This document shows positions 30,903-55,131 of a DNA stretch of 64,000 nt, in pieces; position 1 is the stretch's first letter, and each line of letters starts with the position of its first letter. The stretch spans positions 29,648 to 93,647 of IMG/VR virus record IMGVR_UViG_3300036832_000330. The stretch is one strand, 5' to 3'. The notes under the pieces are model-generated. The model had not been told where the DNA came from. It saw only the letters and a list, made by a program, of their open reading frames with translations, and did no database searches. This DNA is from a virus. Made by a program: the position numbers and the translations under genes.

Positions 30903-31007
30903 AGTTTACCACACCGCATGTGAAGAGTGTTGGCAGCATGTGAGGTAGATTATGTGACGTACGTCACACCGGAACAGCGCACATCCATCTGCTCACTATG
31001 ATATGCT
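30903..31007. promoter_or_regulatory. Divergent leaderless promoters between 30896 and 31014
   Basis: Minus: TGTGGTAAACT with the hexamer at 30903-30908. Plus: CTGCTCACTATGATATGCT with TATGCT at 31002-31007. Each hexamer ends six bases from its start codon. Boxes of the types CACATGYG and CTGCTCACT, repeated at other early promoters, lie just upstream of each hexamer. GTACGTCAC/ACGTAC-like symmetry occurs near 30957-30967. Confidence 0.65.
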
Positions 31008-38531: not shown

Positions 38532-39808
38532 TGCCTAAGAAGGGCCGCAAGGCCACCCGTACCACACCGGGGTTCACCGGGCCGTTCAAGGGCAATGCCC
38601 AGCAGGGCACGCTCTTCGACGTGGGCACTCTGCCCAAGACTGGTGACGAGATCGGCCCTCGTGGCTACAGCCTGAACCGCTCTCGCCAGTTCCAGGCCAT
38701 CTTCCAGGGCGTCAAGGGCACGATAAAGCCCGGTACGAGGTATGCCTTTGGAGCAGAGGGTCCGAAAACCCACATGTTCATCAAGCATGTAGCTAGAGAT
38801 CCGATGGATCCAGAAGCTGGGACTCGCCCTGCCGTAGAACCTAATCAGCACCCCTTCGGGCCATCTCGGGTGCCTCTGCCTCCCCCGGAAAAACGTAACG
38901 CTGCTACTAAGCACATCCAACTGGCACAGAGCCTGGAGCGAGCTAAGTCCAAGTTGGTGGACACCCTGGCACGTTCCACGGTGGACCCGGAGTCGCTCAA
39001 GGGTCTGTCGGAGATCTCCATGCAGCCCGAAAACCCGGAGTATGCCGGCAGATACCACGGCCCGCCTCATCGACAACACACCTCCATCCAGTTGGCCGTC
39101 ACCAAGGAGTCACCCGAAAAAACCTCGTGGCCGACTGAGGATCGGCCTGACATCCCGTTCTCCTATCCCTCTGATGTCAAGCGCCCTGAACAACGAGGAC
39201 CGGTTGACCCTCACTCAGAGATGACCCTCCTGCACGAACTGGGTCACCACGTTTCGGCCATGACCGAGAGACCGTCATCCGAATACCGTGATCCTAGACA
39301 GATGGGAACAGAGGAAGGATTTGCCGACGCTTTTGCCGTAGGGCACTACCGGGAAGATACTCGCACCGCTCGTTGGCATGGGCGTATCGATCCCCGCGAA
39401 CACACCTACCTGGGCCGTGGTGGCCCCCGTGACTGGCAGAAGTTCTCAGTCAGCCCCATATCCCAGTATCGACAGGCTCTAGGGGCGCAGAACGTCCCTC
39501 CTGACAAGGGTGAATCTCTGGAGCGTGGCGCTATCCAGGAACGACATGAGCGACCCATGCTGGATGAGTACCTACCTGCACACCAGCAGGTCTTCAGCAC
39601 TCGCATAGAGGGATGGTCGAGCCGTGGTGCTACTCCCGAAGAACATCGGGCAGGGGTGTACAAGAAGGCGCGCCAGATAACCAATACGCGAACCGGTAGG
39701 TTCAAACAAGAGCGGCAGGAGGTCAAGCGTCGCTGGGGCGTGAACCGTAACTCAGCCTTCCAGGGATCACAGTGGGCGGGTGGGGATGAGGAGAGCAATG
39801 AGCGTTGA
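38531..39808 (+). CDS. Zincin metallopeptidase-domain protein, 425 aa
   Basis: 425 residues. LLHELGHHVSAM (His235, Glu236, His239) with MGTEEGFADAFAV about 22 residues on (Glu261/262 as third ligand) is a gluzincin signature of the kind seen in toxin-like and polyvalent phage proteins. AQQGTLFDVG at 24-32 repeats the QGxLFD string of the 36830 product. The N-terminal 200 residues and basic C-terminus are unassigned. Substrate unknown; a host protein cleaved early in infection is one possibility. Confidence 0.7.
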   Translation: MPKKGRKATRTTPGFTGPFKGNAQQGTLFDVGTLPKTGDEIGPRGYSLNRSRQFQAIFQGVKGTIKPGTRYAFGAEGPKTHMFIKHVARDPMDPEAGTRPAVEPNQHPFGPSRVPLPPPEKRNAATKHIQLAQSLERAKSKLVDTLARSTVDPESLKGLSEISMQPENPEYAGRYHGPPHRQHTSIQLAVTKESPEKTSWPTEDRPDIPFSYPSDVKRPEQRGPVDPHSEMTLLHELGHHVSAMTERPSSEYRDPRQMGTEEGFADAFAVGHYREDTRTARWHGRIDPREHTYLGRGGPRDWQKFSVSPISQYRQALGAQNVPPDKGESLERGAIQERHERPMLDEYLPAHQQVFSTRIEGWSSRGATPEEHRAGVYKKARQITNTRTGRFKQERQEVKRRWGVNRNSAFQGSQWAGGDEESNER

Positions 39809-41225
39809 GTTGTACTTCGCCGGGGCTGAGGTGCCCACCTGGAGGAAGCTCTTGGCCCAGGAGCATGTGCCCCACGTCGCCATCAACTACCTCCACCTCA
39901 AGCCCCGTTTGCCCCAGGAGAAGCCCTGGACCCTGGCCCAGCACTTCCCGCAGGAGGCCAAGCTGTTCCTGGTGTCGGGGGCCTCAGCCACCGAGAAGAA
40001 GGGCTGGAGCGTCGAGCAGCACGAGGAGTTCTTCGCCGGCTACTTCGACTTCGTGCGGGAGAACATCGACCGGCTGGCCTACTTCACCGAGTACGACGCC
40101 CTGGGCCTGGGCCTGGACTGGGTGCTACGCCAGCGCCAGGTCTGGGAGGGCCTGGCTGACGAGAAGCTGGTGCCCATCTGGCGCGAGACCTGGGGTGCGC
40201 CCCTGCTTCGGGACATGGTCGAGGCGCACCCCAACCTGGGTGTGCCTCCTATCACGCCCAGGACCGCCAACGTACTGTCGGGCCTGGTCAGGCGCACGAG
40301 GATTTCGCTGCACGGGCTGTCCTTCAGCCACCCCTATGATCAGCCTGGCGGTCTCTACAGCACCATCGTTTCCTCGTCCTGGATCTCCCCCACCCGGTTC
40401 GGGGAAACGGTGGTGTGGGACCAGAACCGGCTGCGCCGCTACCCGGCTGATGAGAAGGCCAAGATCCGCCGCCGGTACGCTCAGCACTTCGCCCAGGCCG
40501 GTTTCGACGCGGAGCGGATCCTGAAGGACGACTCCAAGGAGGTGGCCCGGTACACCATCTGGGCCTGGCGTCGTCTGGAGGAGTCCATGGAGGGGCCGGG
40601 ATCAACTCATGGAGATATGGGAAGATCTTCCGATAACGGCTCGGACCCCGTTGAAGTAGTTGGTCATAGGAGCCTGGAAGTGCATCAAAACGGGTCAGAC
40701 GACCGCCAGGTCATGCCGGTGTTCGCCTTCCGCCCGGTGACCTCCACCGTGCCCAACCCAGACGGGGCCGGCACCGTCGAGGTCACCAGCCAGGTGGCGG
40801 TAACGGGGCAGGCCAGCGTGCGTGCCTGTGACTCCTGTTCCCTGGCCGTGGTCTGCCCGCTCTTTGAGTCAGGCTCTCAGTGCAAGTACTCGATCCCCAT
40901 CGAGATCCGCAACCGTGACCAACTCTTGGGCATCCTGCACTCTCTCCTGGAGCTTCAGGGGCAGAGGATCGCCTTTGCCCGGTTCTCGGAGGAGCTTCAG
41001 GGCGGATACCCCGATGCGAACCTTTCGTCCGAGTTAGACCGATTCATGAAGATGACCATGTCGGTCAAGGAGATCCAGGACAACCGGGACTTCTTGAAGG
41101 TGACCGTGGAGGGGCGTGCCCAGGCCGGGGTGCTGAGCCGGCTGTTCGGGGCCGAGAGGGCTGAGTCTCTACGTCGAGTCGATCCTGACAAGGCAGAGGA
41201 TGCGGTTCGACGCACGATGCAATAG
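39798..41225 (+). CDS. Conserved phage protein with TIM-barrel-like N-terminus and Cys cluster, 475 aa
   Basis: 475 residues from the ATG at 39798. The start ELYFAGAEVPTWRKLL and the strand-helix pattern (AKLFLVSGASATEKKGWS, HEEFFAGYFDFVRENIDRLA, YFTEYDA) suggest a TIM-barrel-like domain of about 270 residues. After an acidic linker, CDSCSLAVVCPLFESGSQC carries four cysteines in a spacing able to bind Zn or an Fe-S cluster, then SIPIEIRNRDQLLGIL and a helical end. Such genes are known in large actinophages, without firm function as far as I can say. Confidence 0.55.
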   Translation: MSVELYFAGAEVPTWRKLLAQEHVPHVAINYLHLKPRLPQEKPWTLAQHFPQEAKLFLVSGASATEKKGWSVEQHEEFFAGYFDFVRENIDRLAYFTEYDALGLGLDWVLRQRQVWEGLADEKLVPIWRETWGAPLLRDMVEAHPNLGVPPITPRTANVLSGLVRRTRISLHGLSFSHPYDQPGGLYSTIVSSSWISPTRFGETVVWDQNRLRRYPADEKAKIRRRYAQHFAQAGFDAERILKDDSKEVARYTIWAWRRLEESMEGPGSTHGDMGRSSDNGSDPVEVVGHRSLEVHQNGSDDRQVMPVFAFRPVTSTVPNPDGAGTVEVTSQVAVTGQASVRACDSCSLAVVCPLFESGSQCKYSIPIEIRNRDQLLGILHSLLELQGQRIAFARFSEELQGGYPDANLSSELDRFMKMTMSVKEIQDNRDFLKVTVEGRAQAGVLSRLFGAERAESLRRVDPDKAEDAVRRTMQ

Positions 41226-45572: not shown

Positions 45573-46147
45573 CCTCGCTTGCGGGCCTGGTATGTCTCGA
45601 TCATCTCCCAGATGACCTCGACGGCCCACTGGCACACCGTGATCCGATCAGCGGCTGCGGTGCGGTCGAAGAAGGTGCCGCAGTCATGTGGGTATAACTC
45701 GCTCTCGTGATCCTGCTCCCCGGTCTCGATGTTGCGACCGTGGAAGGTGGTGATGGCGTAGAAGGTGACCCGTCCGCTGGTGCGGTCTACCACCTCGATG
45801 AGGTAGCCCATCATATAGTCGGCGTCGATGGTCATGACCACGCCGTTGATGTAGGTCTCCTCGTTGCAGTGCCAGAACTCGCTGTGGAGGCCGGTGCCCC
45901 AGTTCTCACGGGTCTGGATGTCCCAGGGGATGTCGAGAAAGCACTGAACTACTTCCTGCATTTTTATCTTCTCCTCGTGGCACACGCAGGCACAGCCGGC
46001 GCGAGCCTGGTCGACATGGCAGTCGCACTCGTCACAGTGCAGGAGCCGGTACTGCAACTCGGGCCAGGTAGGCATCTTGCCCCCGGCAGCTATGTAGTCC
46101 CGCAGGATCTTCGCGGCTTGCTCGTTGGTGATGGGTTCTTTGCTCAC
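45566..46147 (-). CDS. Hypothetical protein with CxCxxC-type metal cluster, 193 aa
   Basis: 193 residues if it starts at the GTG at 46147 (MSKEPITNEQAAKIL); the upstream frame runs through the structured RNA and is not coding-like. LHCDECDCHVDQARAGCACV and CH give a dense Cys/His cluster at about 37-58. The remainder is mixed (WHCNEETYINGVVMTIDADY). No clear ribosome-binding site is present. It lies directly downstream of the probable RNA gene. Confidence 0.6.
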   Translation of the reverse strand: MSKEPITNEQAAKILRDYIAAGGKMPTWPELQYRLLHCDECDCHVDQARAGCACVCHEEKIKMQEVVQCFLDIPWDIQTRENWGTGLHSEFWHCNEETYINGVVMTIDADYMMGYLIEVVDRTSGRVTFYAITTFHGRNIETGEQDHESELYPHDCGTFFDRTAAADRITVCQWAVEVIWEMIETYQARKRGQ

Positions 46148-46194
46148 ACTCTGTACAAGGAGGCTTGAGCGGCGAAGTGTCAAAAGAAAATCGA

Positions 46195-46310
46195 GAACCC
46201 CTGACCGGGGCAGTGCCTCTCGCGCCAACGGCCCAAGGCGGGGTGTGAGTCCTGTACTGGAACAAGGTCGAGTCAGGTCTCAGGGACCAAAAGAAGCCGG
46301 TCAGGGGTTC
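46195..46310 (-). ncRNA. Probable structured RNA, about 116 nt, ends base-paired
   Basis: On the minus strand TATATT (46322-46317) with TGTGG upstream would start transcription near 46310. That is exactly where GAACCCCTGACCGG begins. Its perfect complement CCGGTCAGGGGTTC ends at 46195, followed by a U-rich run (TCGATTTTCTTTT). Inside are further short hairpins such as GGTCCCTGAGACC. The 14-bp closing helix, promoter spacing and lack of coding sense point to a discrete RNA. I do not recognise a family; it is not a canonical tRNA. Confidence 0.6.
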
Positions 46311-46316
46311 CCGAAA

Positions 46317-46327
46317 AATATACCACA
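46317..46327 (-). promoter_or_regulatory. Extended -10 promoter of the structured RNA
   Basis: TGTGGTATATT on the minus strand (hexamer 46317-46322). The TGTGG part is shared with the early-type promoters at 30009, 30896, 49914 and 61890. Confidence 0.6.
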
Positions 46328-46720
46328 CTACGAGTAGCGAAGGCGGTCGTATTTTCCTTGCAGGCGGGCCACCACCTCGATGGCCTCCTGGGAGGGGTTC
46401 TCGATGTCGCGCTTGCCATGCTCGCACGCCTCTGTACCGGAGGCGAACAGCGGGGTGTGTTCCTCGACGGTGCTGGGGTCGACGCCCCACAGGCGAAAGG
46501 CTAGAGGCTCATGTGCGTGGTCTTGACGCCCGTGTACGACCGTCCAGCCATGGCAGATGACCTCAGGGGTGGCATGGCAGTGGAAGGCCCCCATGGGCTG
46601 CTCATGGGTCTCTGCGTCGTACTGAGCCAGCTTCTCGTACTCGCTGGCAGCCCACACTCCACTGGGCACATCCCGGCGATAGGGGCAGGCCAGACAGGAC
46701 TCCTTGCGGATGTCAGCCAT
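46328..46720 (-). CDS. DUF6283-like Cys/His protein, 130 aa
   Basis: 130 residues. CLACPYRRDVPSGVWAASEY at the start, then MGAFHCHATPEVICHGWTVV, matches the small phage/actinobacterial family with CxxCPxR-D-PxG and CHG motifs (DUF6283 as I recall it), thought to bind metal. Function unknown. It overlaps the previous gene by eight bases. Confidence 0.6.
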   Translation of the reverse strand: MADIRKESCLACPYRRDVPSGVWAASEYEKLAQYDAETHEQPMGAFHCHATPEVICHGWTVVHGRQDHAHEPLAFRLWGVDPSTVEEHTPLFASGTEACEHGKRDIENPSQEAIEVVARLQGKYDRLRYS

Positions 46721-49913: not shown

Positions 49914-49941
49914 ACCTTACCACACTCGCATGCGAGTGTGG
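49914..49941 (-). promoter_or_regulatory. Promoter with 22-bp perfect palindrome operator
   Basis: CCACACTCGCATGCGAGTGTGG at 49920-49941 is a perfect palindrome, directly followed on the minus strand by TAAGGT (49914-49919). The palindrome ends in GTGTGG, the extended -10 of the early class. A dimeric regulator bound here would control RNA polymerase directly. Confidence 0.75.
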
Positions 49942-50553: not shown

Positions 50554-50816
50554 CAGCCCTGTCCTTTCTCTTGGTTGACTCGGTTGGTGTACTCGGTGAT
50601 GATGGCGTCCTCTTTGAGGGCCTGGTCTCCTGCCGGGGTGGTGACATAGACGGTGCGGTTGCGGCCCCAGTAGCGGACGTAGCGCCCGTCAGAGCGGATC
50701 AGGCCCCGCTTTTCCAGGGACTCCAGCACCTCCCGGCGTGAGTGCGCCGCCGCCCTCACAGGCTCGACAGAGACCCACTGGAGAACCCACCGCTGGGTGC
50801 TGCCCAGGGGGCGCAT
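50553..50816 (-). CDS. Winged-helix DNA-binding-like protein, 87 aa
   Basis: Eighty-seven residues from the ATG at 50816 that overlaps the ArdC stop. SRREVLESLEKRGLIRSDGR, with YVRYWGRNRTVYVTTPAG after it, has helix plus wing as in small transcriptional regulators. It may control its own operon. Confidence 0.6.
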   Translation of the reverse strand: MRPLGSTQRWVLQWVSVEPVRAAAHSRREVLESLEKRGLIRSDGRYVRYWGRNRTVYVTTPAGDQALKEDAIITEYTNRVNQEKGQG

Positions 50817-51883
50817 TACTCGCCCCCCTCTTCGCTCTTGTCGAACGTGACGCCCAGGATGTGGTCGACGGCCTTCTGCGCCTGGGACGCAGCCCTGATG
50901 ATCAGGTTCTTGTCCTGGCGCAGGGCCTTGAGCCAATGGGCGATGTAGGCGGCGCTGTTGTCGAGGACGGCGTCCTGCTTGATGCCGGCGATGGCGGTGA
51001 GGAAGCTGGCCCCCAGTTCGGCCACCAGTTCCTCAAACGAGTACACGGGTGAGCCGAATGGGCCGAAGGTGCCCTGGGCGATGCCCTCACGCTTGAGCCT
51101 GGAGTCATGCCCGCTGGAGTGCGTCAACTCGTGGTACAGCGTCGAGAAGTAGCCCTCCGCGGTGCTGAAGTCCTCAAAGCGAGGCATTTGCACATGGTCA
51201 GTGGCCGGCGTGTAGCAGGCCCGGTCCCCGCCATGGGCCAGCGAGGGGCCATTGGCGAGGTACTCAGCGACCAGTTCCTCAGCATCAGCGAGGGTCTCCT
51301 TGGCCTCACGTACTGGTGCAGTAGGCACGCCCTTGCTGCCCTCAGGGAAGTTGCACTGGTCCGCGTTGAACACATGCCAGATGACGGGGAAGCCACTGCG
51401 CTTGAACAGCGGGCTGCCGTCCTTCTTCAGCACCGGCTTGCCGTCCTCCAGGACCGGGCGGTCAGAGAAGATCCAGCGAATGATCTCGGTGGACTTCTCG
51501 CCAGCCCGCACACCTCGTGGTGTCGGGTCGACGGTGCCGTCCTCCAGCTTGGGCGAGAAGTACTTGACGCGGTCGCTGCCGTCGCGGTTCTTGCCGACGA
51601 CGGTGGCGACCATGCCGGCGCGCTCAGCCATCTGGTTGTAGGTGCCGAAGTACTTGGAAGTCCATCCGTTGTCGACCATGGCGATCCAGAGGCGGATGGT
51701 GTTGGAGCCGCGGTAGATCAGGCCGGTAGCCAGCGAGGTGGGCATGTCGCCGCCCTCACAGTGCCAGTCCTTGTGCCAGGGCACCGTGCCAGCCTCCAGG
51801 CGGGCGATGATGGCGTTGGTTTGCTCCTGGGCGGCGTCGCGGGTGTTGGTGCGGTTCTTCTTCGATGTGGTAGCTCGTGCCAT
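50816..51883 (-). CDS. ardC: ArdC-like antirestriction protein
   Basis: 355 residues. The N-terminal part (about 1-150: TNAIIARLEAGTVPWHKDW, GLIYRGSNTIRLWIAM, YFGTYNQMAERAGM) matches the ArdC N-terminal ssDNA-binding domain. The C-terminal zincin domain has YHELTHSSGH (HExxH at 251-255) and a downstream EELVAELGA with the third ligand Glu. ArdC proteins protect incoming single-stranded DNA from restriction in plasmids and phages. TATATT ends six bases before the ATG (leaderless). Operon partners are a winged helix and two small proteins. Confidence 0.85.
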   Translation of the reverse strand: MARATTSKKNRTNTRDAAQEQTNAIIARLEAGTVPWHKDWHCEGGDMPTSLATGLIYRGSNTIRLWIAMVDNGWTSKYFGTYNQMAERAGMVATVVGKNRDGSDRVKYFSPKLEDGTVDPTPRGVRAGEKSTEIIRWIFSDRPVLEDGKPVLKKDGSPLFKRSGFPVIWHVFNADQCNFPEGSKGVPTAPVREAKETLADAEELVAEYLANGPSLAHGGDRACYTPATDHVQMPRFEDFSTAEGYFSTLYHELTHSSGHDSRLKREGIAQGTFGPFGSPVYSFEELVAELGASFLTAIAGIKQDAVLDNSAAYIAHWLKALRQDKNLIIRAASQAQKAVDHILGVTFDKSEEGGE

Positions 51884-51889
51884 GTGTCT

Positions 51890-51912
51890 AATATACCAGA
51901 GCGAGCAGTCGC
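51890..51912 (-). promoter_or_regulatory. Leaderless early promoter of ardC
   Basis: GACTGCTCGCTCTGG upstream of TATATT (51890-51895, minus strand), six bases before the ATG at 51883. The GACTGCTCGCTCT part is one half of the palindrome at 53074-53102. Confidence 0.7.
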
Positions 51913-53882: not shown

Positions 53883-54731
53883 CTATGCGGGCAGTAGCTG
53901 GCGCTCGGCGGCGGCGATGATCTCAGCGATGGACAGAGCCACGGTGAAACGCTTGCCCACCTTGTCCTCGACGGCCCGGTACTCCTGGGCCAGCGAGGGG
54001 TTGTGCTTGGCGGCGATGATCAGGTCAGGCTTGCTGGCGAGGACGCAGAAGCAGCAGGACAGGCGAGACATGCCCTTGTCGTAGGCATCGTGGTAGCGGA
54101 CACCTGACGCATGGATGCGGTCCCAGACCTGCTCCTCACTCCAATCGAAGATGGGGAGCCAGCGATCCACGTCACGCTTGCCGTTGCACGCCTTGGGATC
54201 CTTCTCCCAGGCGGCTTTCTTGGCCCGTGCCGGCGACTCCTGCGCCCGGATGCCCAGGCAGTTCAGGATGCGCGCCTGGCGCTTGGCGTAGGTGCCGTCA
54301 GCGTTGCGGATCCAGCCCGCCTTGTTGCGGATCTCATCGGTCAGCGAGGTGATGAGCTTCAGCACCTGGGCCGTCTTCTGATCAGAGGTACACCAGCGAG
54401 CGGCGCTGGAGGGCCAGGGAGCGATGTCGCGACCCTTGGCGATGTTGGCCTCGTGGCGCTGCTCCACCTGGGTCAGCAGGTCACCCTTCTCACGAGTGAC
54501 CACCTCAAAGCGCAGCCCGTAGTGGGCAGCCTGCTCAGCGGCGAGTTCAGCGGTGCCTTCCCACTCCACGCGGCCCAGGTCGCAGTGAACGACCACCAGG
54601 CGGGAGCGAGCGACGCCCTGGGCATCAGCGAGTTCCACGAGGTAATCGAGCATGGCCTGCGAGTCCTTGCCCGCGCTGGAGTTGACCAACACCCAGTCGT
54701 AGCGCCCCAGGTCGGGGATGTCATGTGCCAT
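53883..54731 (-). CDS. PAPS-reductase/DndC-family PP-loop protein
   Basis: 282 residues from the ATG at 54731 (leaderless, TACCTT six bases upstream). SSAGKDS at 18-24 is the PP-loop that binds ATP or PAPS; RWCTSDQK and LGIRAQESPAR follow, then a Cys pair with SCCFCVLASKPDL typical of the phosphoadenosine-phosphosulfate reductase fold. In phages this fold occurs in proteins linked to DNA or tRNA sulfur/base modification. No DndDE partners are in the window, so the substrate remains open. It starts with MAHD like three other genes. Confidence 0.75.
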   Translation of the reverse strand: MAHDIPDLGRYDWVLVNSSAGKDSQAMLDYLVELADAQGVARSRLVVVHCDLGRVEWEGTAELAAEQAAHYGLRFEVVTREKGDLLTQVEQRHEANIAKGRDIAPWPSSAARWCTSDQKTAQVLKLITSLTDEIRNKAGWIRNADGTYAKRQARILNCLGIRAQESPARAKKAAWEKDPKACNGKRDVDRWLPIFDWSEEQVWDRIHASGVRYHDAYDKGMSRLSCCFCVLASKPDLIIAAKHNPSLAQEYRAVEDKVGKRFTVALSIAEIIAAAERQLLPA

Positions 54732-54737
54732 GGGGAC

Positions 54738-55131
54738 AAGGTACAGGCCAGCCGCATGCAAGTGGGATCACTCGCATGTGTCATCCGTCACATCAACATG
54801 CTCACAGTCGCATGCTGACCCCCTCTCAAATGCCCTGAGAGGCCCCTGTACGCCTCCCTGAGGCCCGCCACCCCCTCCAGGCACCAACCACCCATTGCTG
54901 AGGCTTACAGGGCCTCCTGGAGGATTCCCACAGGGTGTGGATAAGCCGAGAAACCCTTATGGGGCAAGGGCCAATGGCCCGCTTGGCAGGTACATAAACC
55001 TGCTCACACTCACATGCCTACCCGATGCATTCCATGTACTGGCTCACGCTGGCCCACGCTCAGGGAAAGAAATCTGGAGAAATGTGCCTGCCTGCACCTG
55101 CTCGCTCTCACATGTGCTGTATCTTGTCCCC
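54738..55131. promoter_or_regulatory. Divergent early control region, possible origin-type site
   Basis: About 400 bases without a gene. It holds the leaderless promoters TACCTT (54738-54743, minus) and TATCTT (55120-55125, plus). There are several copies of the early box: CTCGCATGTG (54771), CTCACAGTCGCATG (54801), CTCACACTCACATG (55003) and CTCGCTCTCACATG (55101). One perfect DnaA-box-like TGTGGATAA lies at 54936-54944. Only one DnaA box is seen, so an origin role is weak. Confidence 0.55.

Follow-up and report, generated by a model that had tools for sequence, protein, structure and literature searches.

In a phage genome, between a gene for a DUF6283 protein and an orphan gene, and close to the left-hand end of an operon that runs leftward, lies an element that, judging from its sequence, probably forms a separate transcription unit (46325-46182, minus strand) for a short phage small RNA that would terminate itself and seal its own ends. 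The DNA examined is a window of 64,000 nt, positions 29,648-93,647 of the IMG/VR record IMGVR_UViG_3300036832_000330. The small-RNA reading is favoured by a helix that is unmatched in shuffled sequence, the recurrence of the promoter nonamer, the U-run, the single G-U pair of the helix, and the occurrence in relatives of the following TTGACA box as a separate entity (Table 1). If transcribed, the RNA would be one more candidate for the short list of non-coding RNAs documented in actinophage-like viruses, with an economical design in which a single helix both terminates and protects the molecule.

Table 1. Features of the element, its neighbourhood and the promoter family (window coordinates, except where a related contig is named)
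Feature	Position	Strand	Remarks
Extended -10 promoter, TGGTATATT	46317..46325	-	Identical nonamer at 51898(-); similar sites in relatives
Predicted transcription start	46310	-	From spacing of leaderless TGRTANNNT-N6-ATG promoters; 46312 or 46311 equally good on sequence
5' arm of closing helix, TCGGGAACCCCTGACCGG	46297..46314	-	Pairs with CCGGTCAGGGGTTCTCGA
88-nt interior	46209..46296	-	Folding no better than shuffled
3' arm of closing helix, CCGGTCAGGGGTTCTCGA	46191..46208	-	Pairs with TCGGGAACCCCTGACCGG
Antisense segment, AGGGGTTCTCGAT	46190..46202	-	Perfect 13-nt complement to DUF6283 coding strand 46405-46393
U-run, TTTTCTTTT	46182..46190	-	Gives helix intrinsic-terminator-like form; shares two bases with next box
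TTGACA-N11-AAGCCTCCTTG box	46156..46183	-	Seems to open orphan gene's own module
TTGACA...CTCCTTG box in relatives	L043 5183(-); L046 14978(+); L051 12648(-)		
Upstream gene, DUF6283 protein, 130 aa	46328..46720	-	Pfam PF19800, E 3.5e-24; four close viral relatives
Downstream orphan gene, 193 aa	45566..46147	-	Alternative start ATG 45961 after GAGGAG
Promoter family sites, window	30024(-), 30911(-), 30999(+), 49922(-), 51898(-), 53090(-), 53870(-), 61887(+)		
Promoter family sites, relatives	L042, L047, L058		

The closing helix and the U-run

The 14-bp arms given in the preliminary description, GAACCCCTGACCGG and CCGGTCAGGGGTTC, lie exactly at 46310-46297 and 46208-46195 (minus strand), but constitute only the inner, all-Watson-Crick part of a longer helix, in which 46314-46297 pairs with 46208-46191 through 18 uninterrupted pairs (17 Watson-Crick and one G-U) that enclose 88 nt. 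This is the longest stem with a loop of 30-200 nt in the window, and comparable stems in 30 windows shuffled according to a first-order Markov model reached at most 17 bp. The folding energy, which the preliminary description had proposed to compare with that of shuffled sequence, also stands out: the 131-nt fold has -63.8 kcal/mol against -44.5 +/- 3.6 for the shuffles (z -5.4), none of which (0/200) was as good. The 14-bp core retains pair probabilities of 0.93-1.0 for starts at 46312, 46311 and 46310 and also for read-through RNAs that begin at 46420 or 46720. The excess stability resides wholly in this closing helix. Dinucleotide shuffles of the interior give -24.9 +/- 3.2 kcal/mol, and the interior itself, folded alone, reaches -26.6 kcal/mol (z -0.53), so that the internal hairpins previously noted are not evidence of an evolved fold; no ATG-started open reading frame was seen in these 88 nt.

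Because the plus-strand fold is nearly equal (z -4.8), folding energy alone cannot pick the strand. The minus strand is favoured by the sole non-Watson-Crick pair, which is G-U on this strand and A-C on the other, by the T-run after the 3' arm and by the promoter-like TGGTATATT before the 5' arm. The U-rich run reported after the 3' arm is present at 46190-46182; 11-mers with at least eight T account for 0.023% of the contig. One relative (L003) has ATTTTC ahead of its TTGACA box without any helix, and the T-run may accordingly predate the helix or be independent of it; it need not have originated as a terminator.

The putative promoter and its family

The putative promoter is located in TGTGGTATATT (46327-46317, minus strand), with an imperfect palindrome, CTACTCGTAG, immediately upstream. 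The window contains two copies of its nonamer, each on the minus strand. The second stands six bases ahead of the ATG of a leaderless ArdC-like anti-restriction gene, and the relative L002 possesses a corresponding site. Further sites of the form TGRTANNNT-N6-ATG are found at 30911(-), 30024(-) and 30999(+), and also in relatives. Together these look like a family of leaderless promoters in which +1 falls seven bases past the hexamer; with the family spacing, +1 of the element would be G46310, the first base of the 14-bp helix, in agreement with the start near 46310 that had been predicted earlier. Like extended -10 promoters elsewhere in the phage and in its relatives lend support to the proposal of a short RNA, transcribed from the minus strand, with its predicted first base at the opening of the closing helix. 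This support derives from the placement of the sites ahead of genes and their recurrence in relatives rather than from motif count, the bare extended -10 motif being not enriched (13 in the window against 21 expected from first-order Markov shuffles).

In most members of the family the -10 element is followed by TACCAC, usually as CTACCAC, at a distance of 16-29 bases (in one case 45) counted from where the -10 element starts, and in varying reading frames. Such pairs of -10 element and TACCAC number eight in the window, compared to 0.47 expected, and occur in three of the four relatives as well; the hexanucleotide may serve as a site for a regulator or as a signal in the RNA. The promoter of the putative small RNA has the family-type extended -10 but neither a recognisable consensus -35 nor TACCAC; the absence of the latter may mean that it is subject to different regulation or is one of the weaker promoters of the family. 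The combination of extended -10, leaderless start and downstream CTACCAC provides a means to map transcription units in these uncultured phages. TACCAC is the reverse complement of GTGGTA, which is present at several -10 sites. A perfect 16-bp palindrome, CACTCGCATGCGAGTG, at 49923-49938 (minus strand) adjoins the extended -10 TGGTAAGGT in an operator-like manner.

Among stems of at least 16 bp in the phage and four relatives (about 430 kb scanned), the closing helix alone opens within 12 bases of such a -10 element and is then followed by a U-run. An order in which a promoter is succeeded by about 115-130 bases, with the 5' arm at +1 and the 3' arm on the far side of the interior, and then by a T-run is unlikely to have arisen by chance. 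We propose that the extended -10 promoter would drive an RNA of about 127-130 nt starting at G46310 (or at G46312 or G46311), and that the first and last 14-18 bases of this RNA, once paired and followed by the U-run, would constitute its intrinsic terminator. The same pairing would stop transcription and simultaneously seal the 5' and 3' ends; with its ends sealed, the RNA would keep its 5' triphosphate out of reach of end-dependent decay and would be long-lived. The 88-nt interior, devoid of strong structure, would be the working part and would most likely pair with a putative phage or host RNA target.

Neighbouring genes and read-through

The orphan gene is on the same strand as the element, its start lies only about 35 bases past the U-run, and a helix with a U-run is a terminator by construction. 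These features would suit a 5' leader with an attenuator, where transcripts from 46325 would stop at the helix unless it is opened by a protein, ligand or RNA, in which case they would continue into the 45566 gene. Control of that gene by a leader had been suggested before and retains a small chance, but we consider it unlikely: no mutually exclusive antiterminator fold was found, the closing pairs keeping probabilities of 0.93 or more in all folds that start at 46310 or upstream of it, no riboswitch or leader match was found in Rfam, and a separate TTGACA box, kept in relatives, intervenes between helix and gene. Matching boxes precede other genes in the relatives G001 (L043), G002 (L046) and G003 (L051, with two mismatches), all without the helix, and in L043 and L046 the similarity runs on to the start codon region. 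Since the box recurs without the helix in three relatives, TTGACA seems to be where a module belonging to the orphan gene begins. Searches of viral contigs, phages, Pfam and PHROGs returned nothing for the product of this gene, which AlphaFold models with low confidence (pLDDT 49). The TTGACA...CTCCTTG box, which precedes different genes in four related phages, is -35-like, without an evident -10.

The leftward early operon spans 54.8-46.3 kb, and the element sits after its last dense gene and before a gene that has its own box. From this position, it could act as a terminator or insulator, stopping transcripts of the operon from running on and shielding the downstream promoter, with the short RNA as a by-product; the helix forms in read-through transcripts too, and a 13-nt match to the upstream gene would permit extra pairing in read-through RNA only. 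We regard this function as rather improbable because a terminator has no need of an 88-nt loop and the exact placement of a promoter at the foot of the 5' arm would be left unexplained.

All other antisense matches of the RNA across the contig are shorter than the 13-nt match, which lies mostly inside the 3' arm; this length was reached in 5/5000 shuffles of the gene and 8/5000 shuffles of the RNA, although the match was found post hoc and is to be taken as a lead only. The relatives, all of which lack the helix, have at least one mismatch in the corresponding DUF6283 segment. With AGGGGTTCTCGAT locked in the closing helix, pairing in trans would need the helix to be opened. In read-through folds the closing helix prevails over the 13-nt match, and a switch based on competition between the two was therefore rejected. 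Extending the small-RNA reading, the element could represent a class of phage small RNAs not seen before, in which one helix marks the start and acts as intrinsic terminator, the long-lived RNA is sealed around an open 88-nt cassette, and either the cassette or the 13-nt antisense 3' arm silences a specific mRNA; so far-reaching a reading is distinctly improbable.

Search for relatives and comparison with known RNAs

The DUF6283 gene has close relatives in four viral contigs (three at 82-86% identity and one at 69%), with two scans using the protein returning the identical four loci; three of these contigs also carry a relative of the tail sheath. The helix is absent from the matching place in all four loci, and no homologue of the element was found in the four related contigs, IMG/VR or deposited phages. 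In phage records, blastn yielded chance matches only. A single-sequence covariance model recovered only the element itself from the contig that carries it and from 11 viral records, related or partly so, and nothing from the DUF6283 neighbourhoods of three cultured phages. The absence of homologues, and hence of covariation and of any sign of selection on the RNA, counts against the small-RNA reading, but for covariation it reflects a shortage of comparable sequences and not a negative outcome. Also counting against this reading are the shuffle-like folding of the interior, the missing -35 and TACCAC, and the T-rich stretch that L003 has without a helix.

The exact arm pattern was absent from viral contigs, whereas a looser one detected three loci. 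In one of these, L022 (1140-1250), a 15-bp stem, GAACCCCTGCCTGGT / GCCAGGCAGGGGTTC, encloses 81 nt directly ahead of AGGAGG-ATG; this locus was rejected as a relative because its covariance model score derives from the arms used to select it, and none of its open reading frames matches the phage group. The promoter-plus-arm pattern hit 29 loci, all of lower G+C and none with the stem. In bacterial genomes, the arm pattern retrieved assorted inverted repeats and palindromes, none of them a relative. That arm sequences turn up inverted repeats in unrelated bacterial genomes, with several per genome in Prevotella and Planctomyces, would fit an inverted-repeat DNA element, for instance a small transposon of the non-autonomous type, bounded by 18-bp ends and flanked by A-rich sequence. 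Such a MITE-like origin is highly improbable, given that the element is present in a single copy in the contig and in none of the four related contigs, has no clear target-site duplication, and bears a promoter and a U-run exactly at its ends.

As stated in the preliminary description, no RNA family is recognised: Rfam 15 gave no match at the gathering score, and for 45900-46600 none up to E 10 save two chance matches. The likeness to Y or 6S RNAs drawn there is unsupported in the face of this result, the lack of significant internal structure and the absence of a Ro60 gene (TROVE, PF05731) from the 93.6-kb contig, which may be incomplete and whose host could supply the protein. With bacterial Y RNAs, the partners of Ro60/Rsr, the element shares paired 5' and 3' ends (here the 18-bp terminal helix) but it comes with no Ro60/TROVE gene in the contig, matches no curated Y RNA model and displays no internal tRNA-like fold. 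6S RNA is likewise a small RNA with paired ends; it is, however, a long rod with a large central bubble, whereas the predicted fold of the element is branched, with weak internal arms and no counterpart in Rfam. The G+C-rich helix directly followed by a U-run is shared with intrinsic (Rho-independent) terminators, from which the element differs by the 88-nt loop and by a 5' arm that coincides with the predicted transcript start.

Abundant non-coding RNAs of actinophages include the D29 63-64 intergenic RNA, the right-end RNA of L5, D29 and StarStuff, and the non-coding RNAs of Rhodococcus phage WC1, all seen by RNA-seq and of unknown function (PMC5712189, PMC10986025). The element resembles these in being non-coding and in its intergenic or genome-end location; they are known from RNA-seq, whereas the element is predicted from sequence. 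Non-coding RNAs of phages are thus a kind already known (PMC10986025), to which the element, seen in one virus, would add a single-genome candidate. An actinobacterial host is suggested by the similarity of one gene to mycobacteriophages. The same phage also encodes a queuine tRNA-ribosyltransferase-like protein (39780-41225, plus strand), the ArdC-like anti-restriction protein (50816-51883, minus strand) and a PAPS-reductase-like protein (53883-54761, minus strand).
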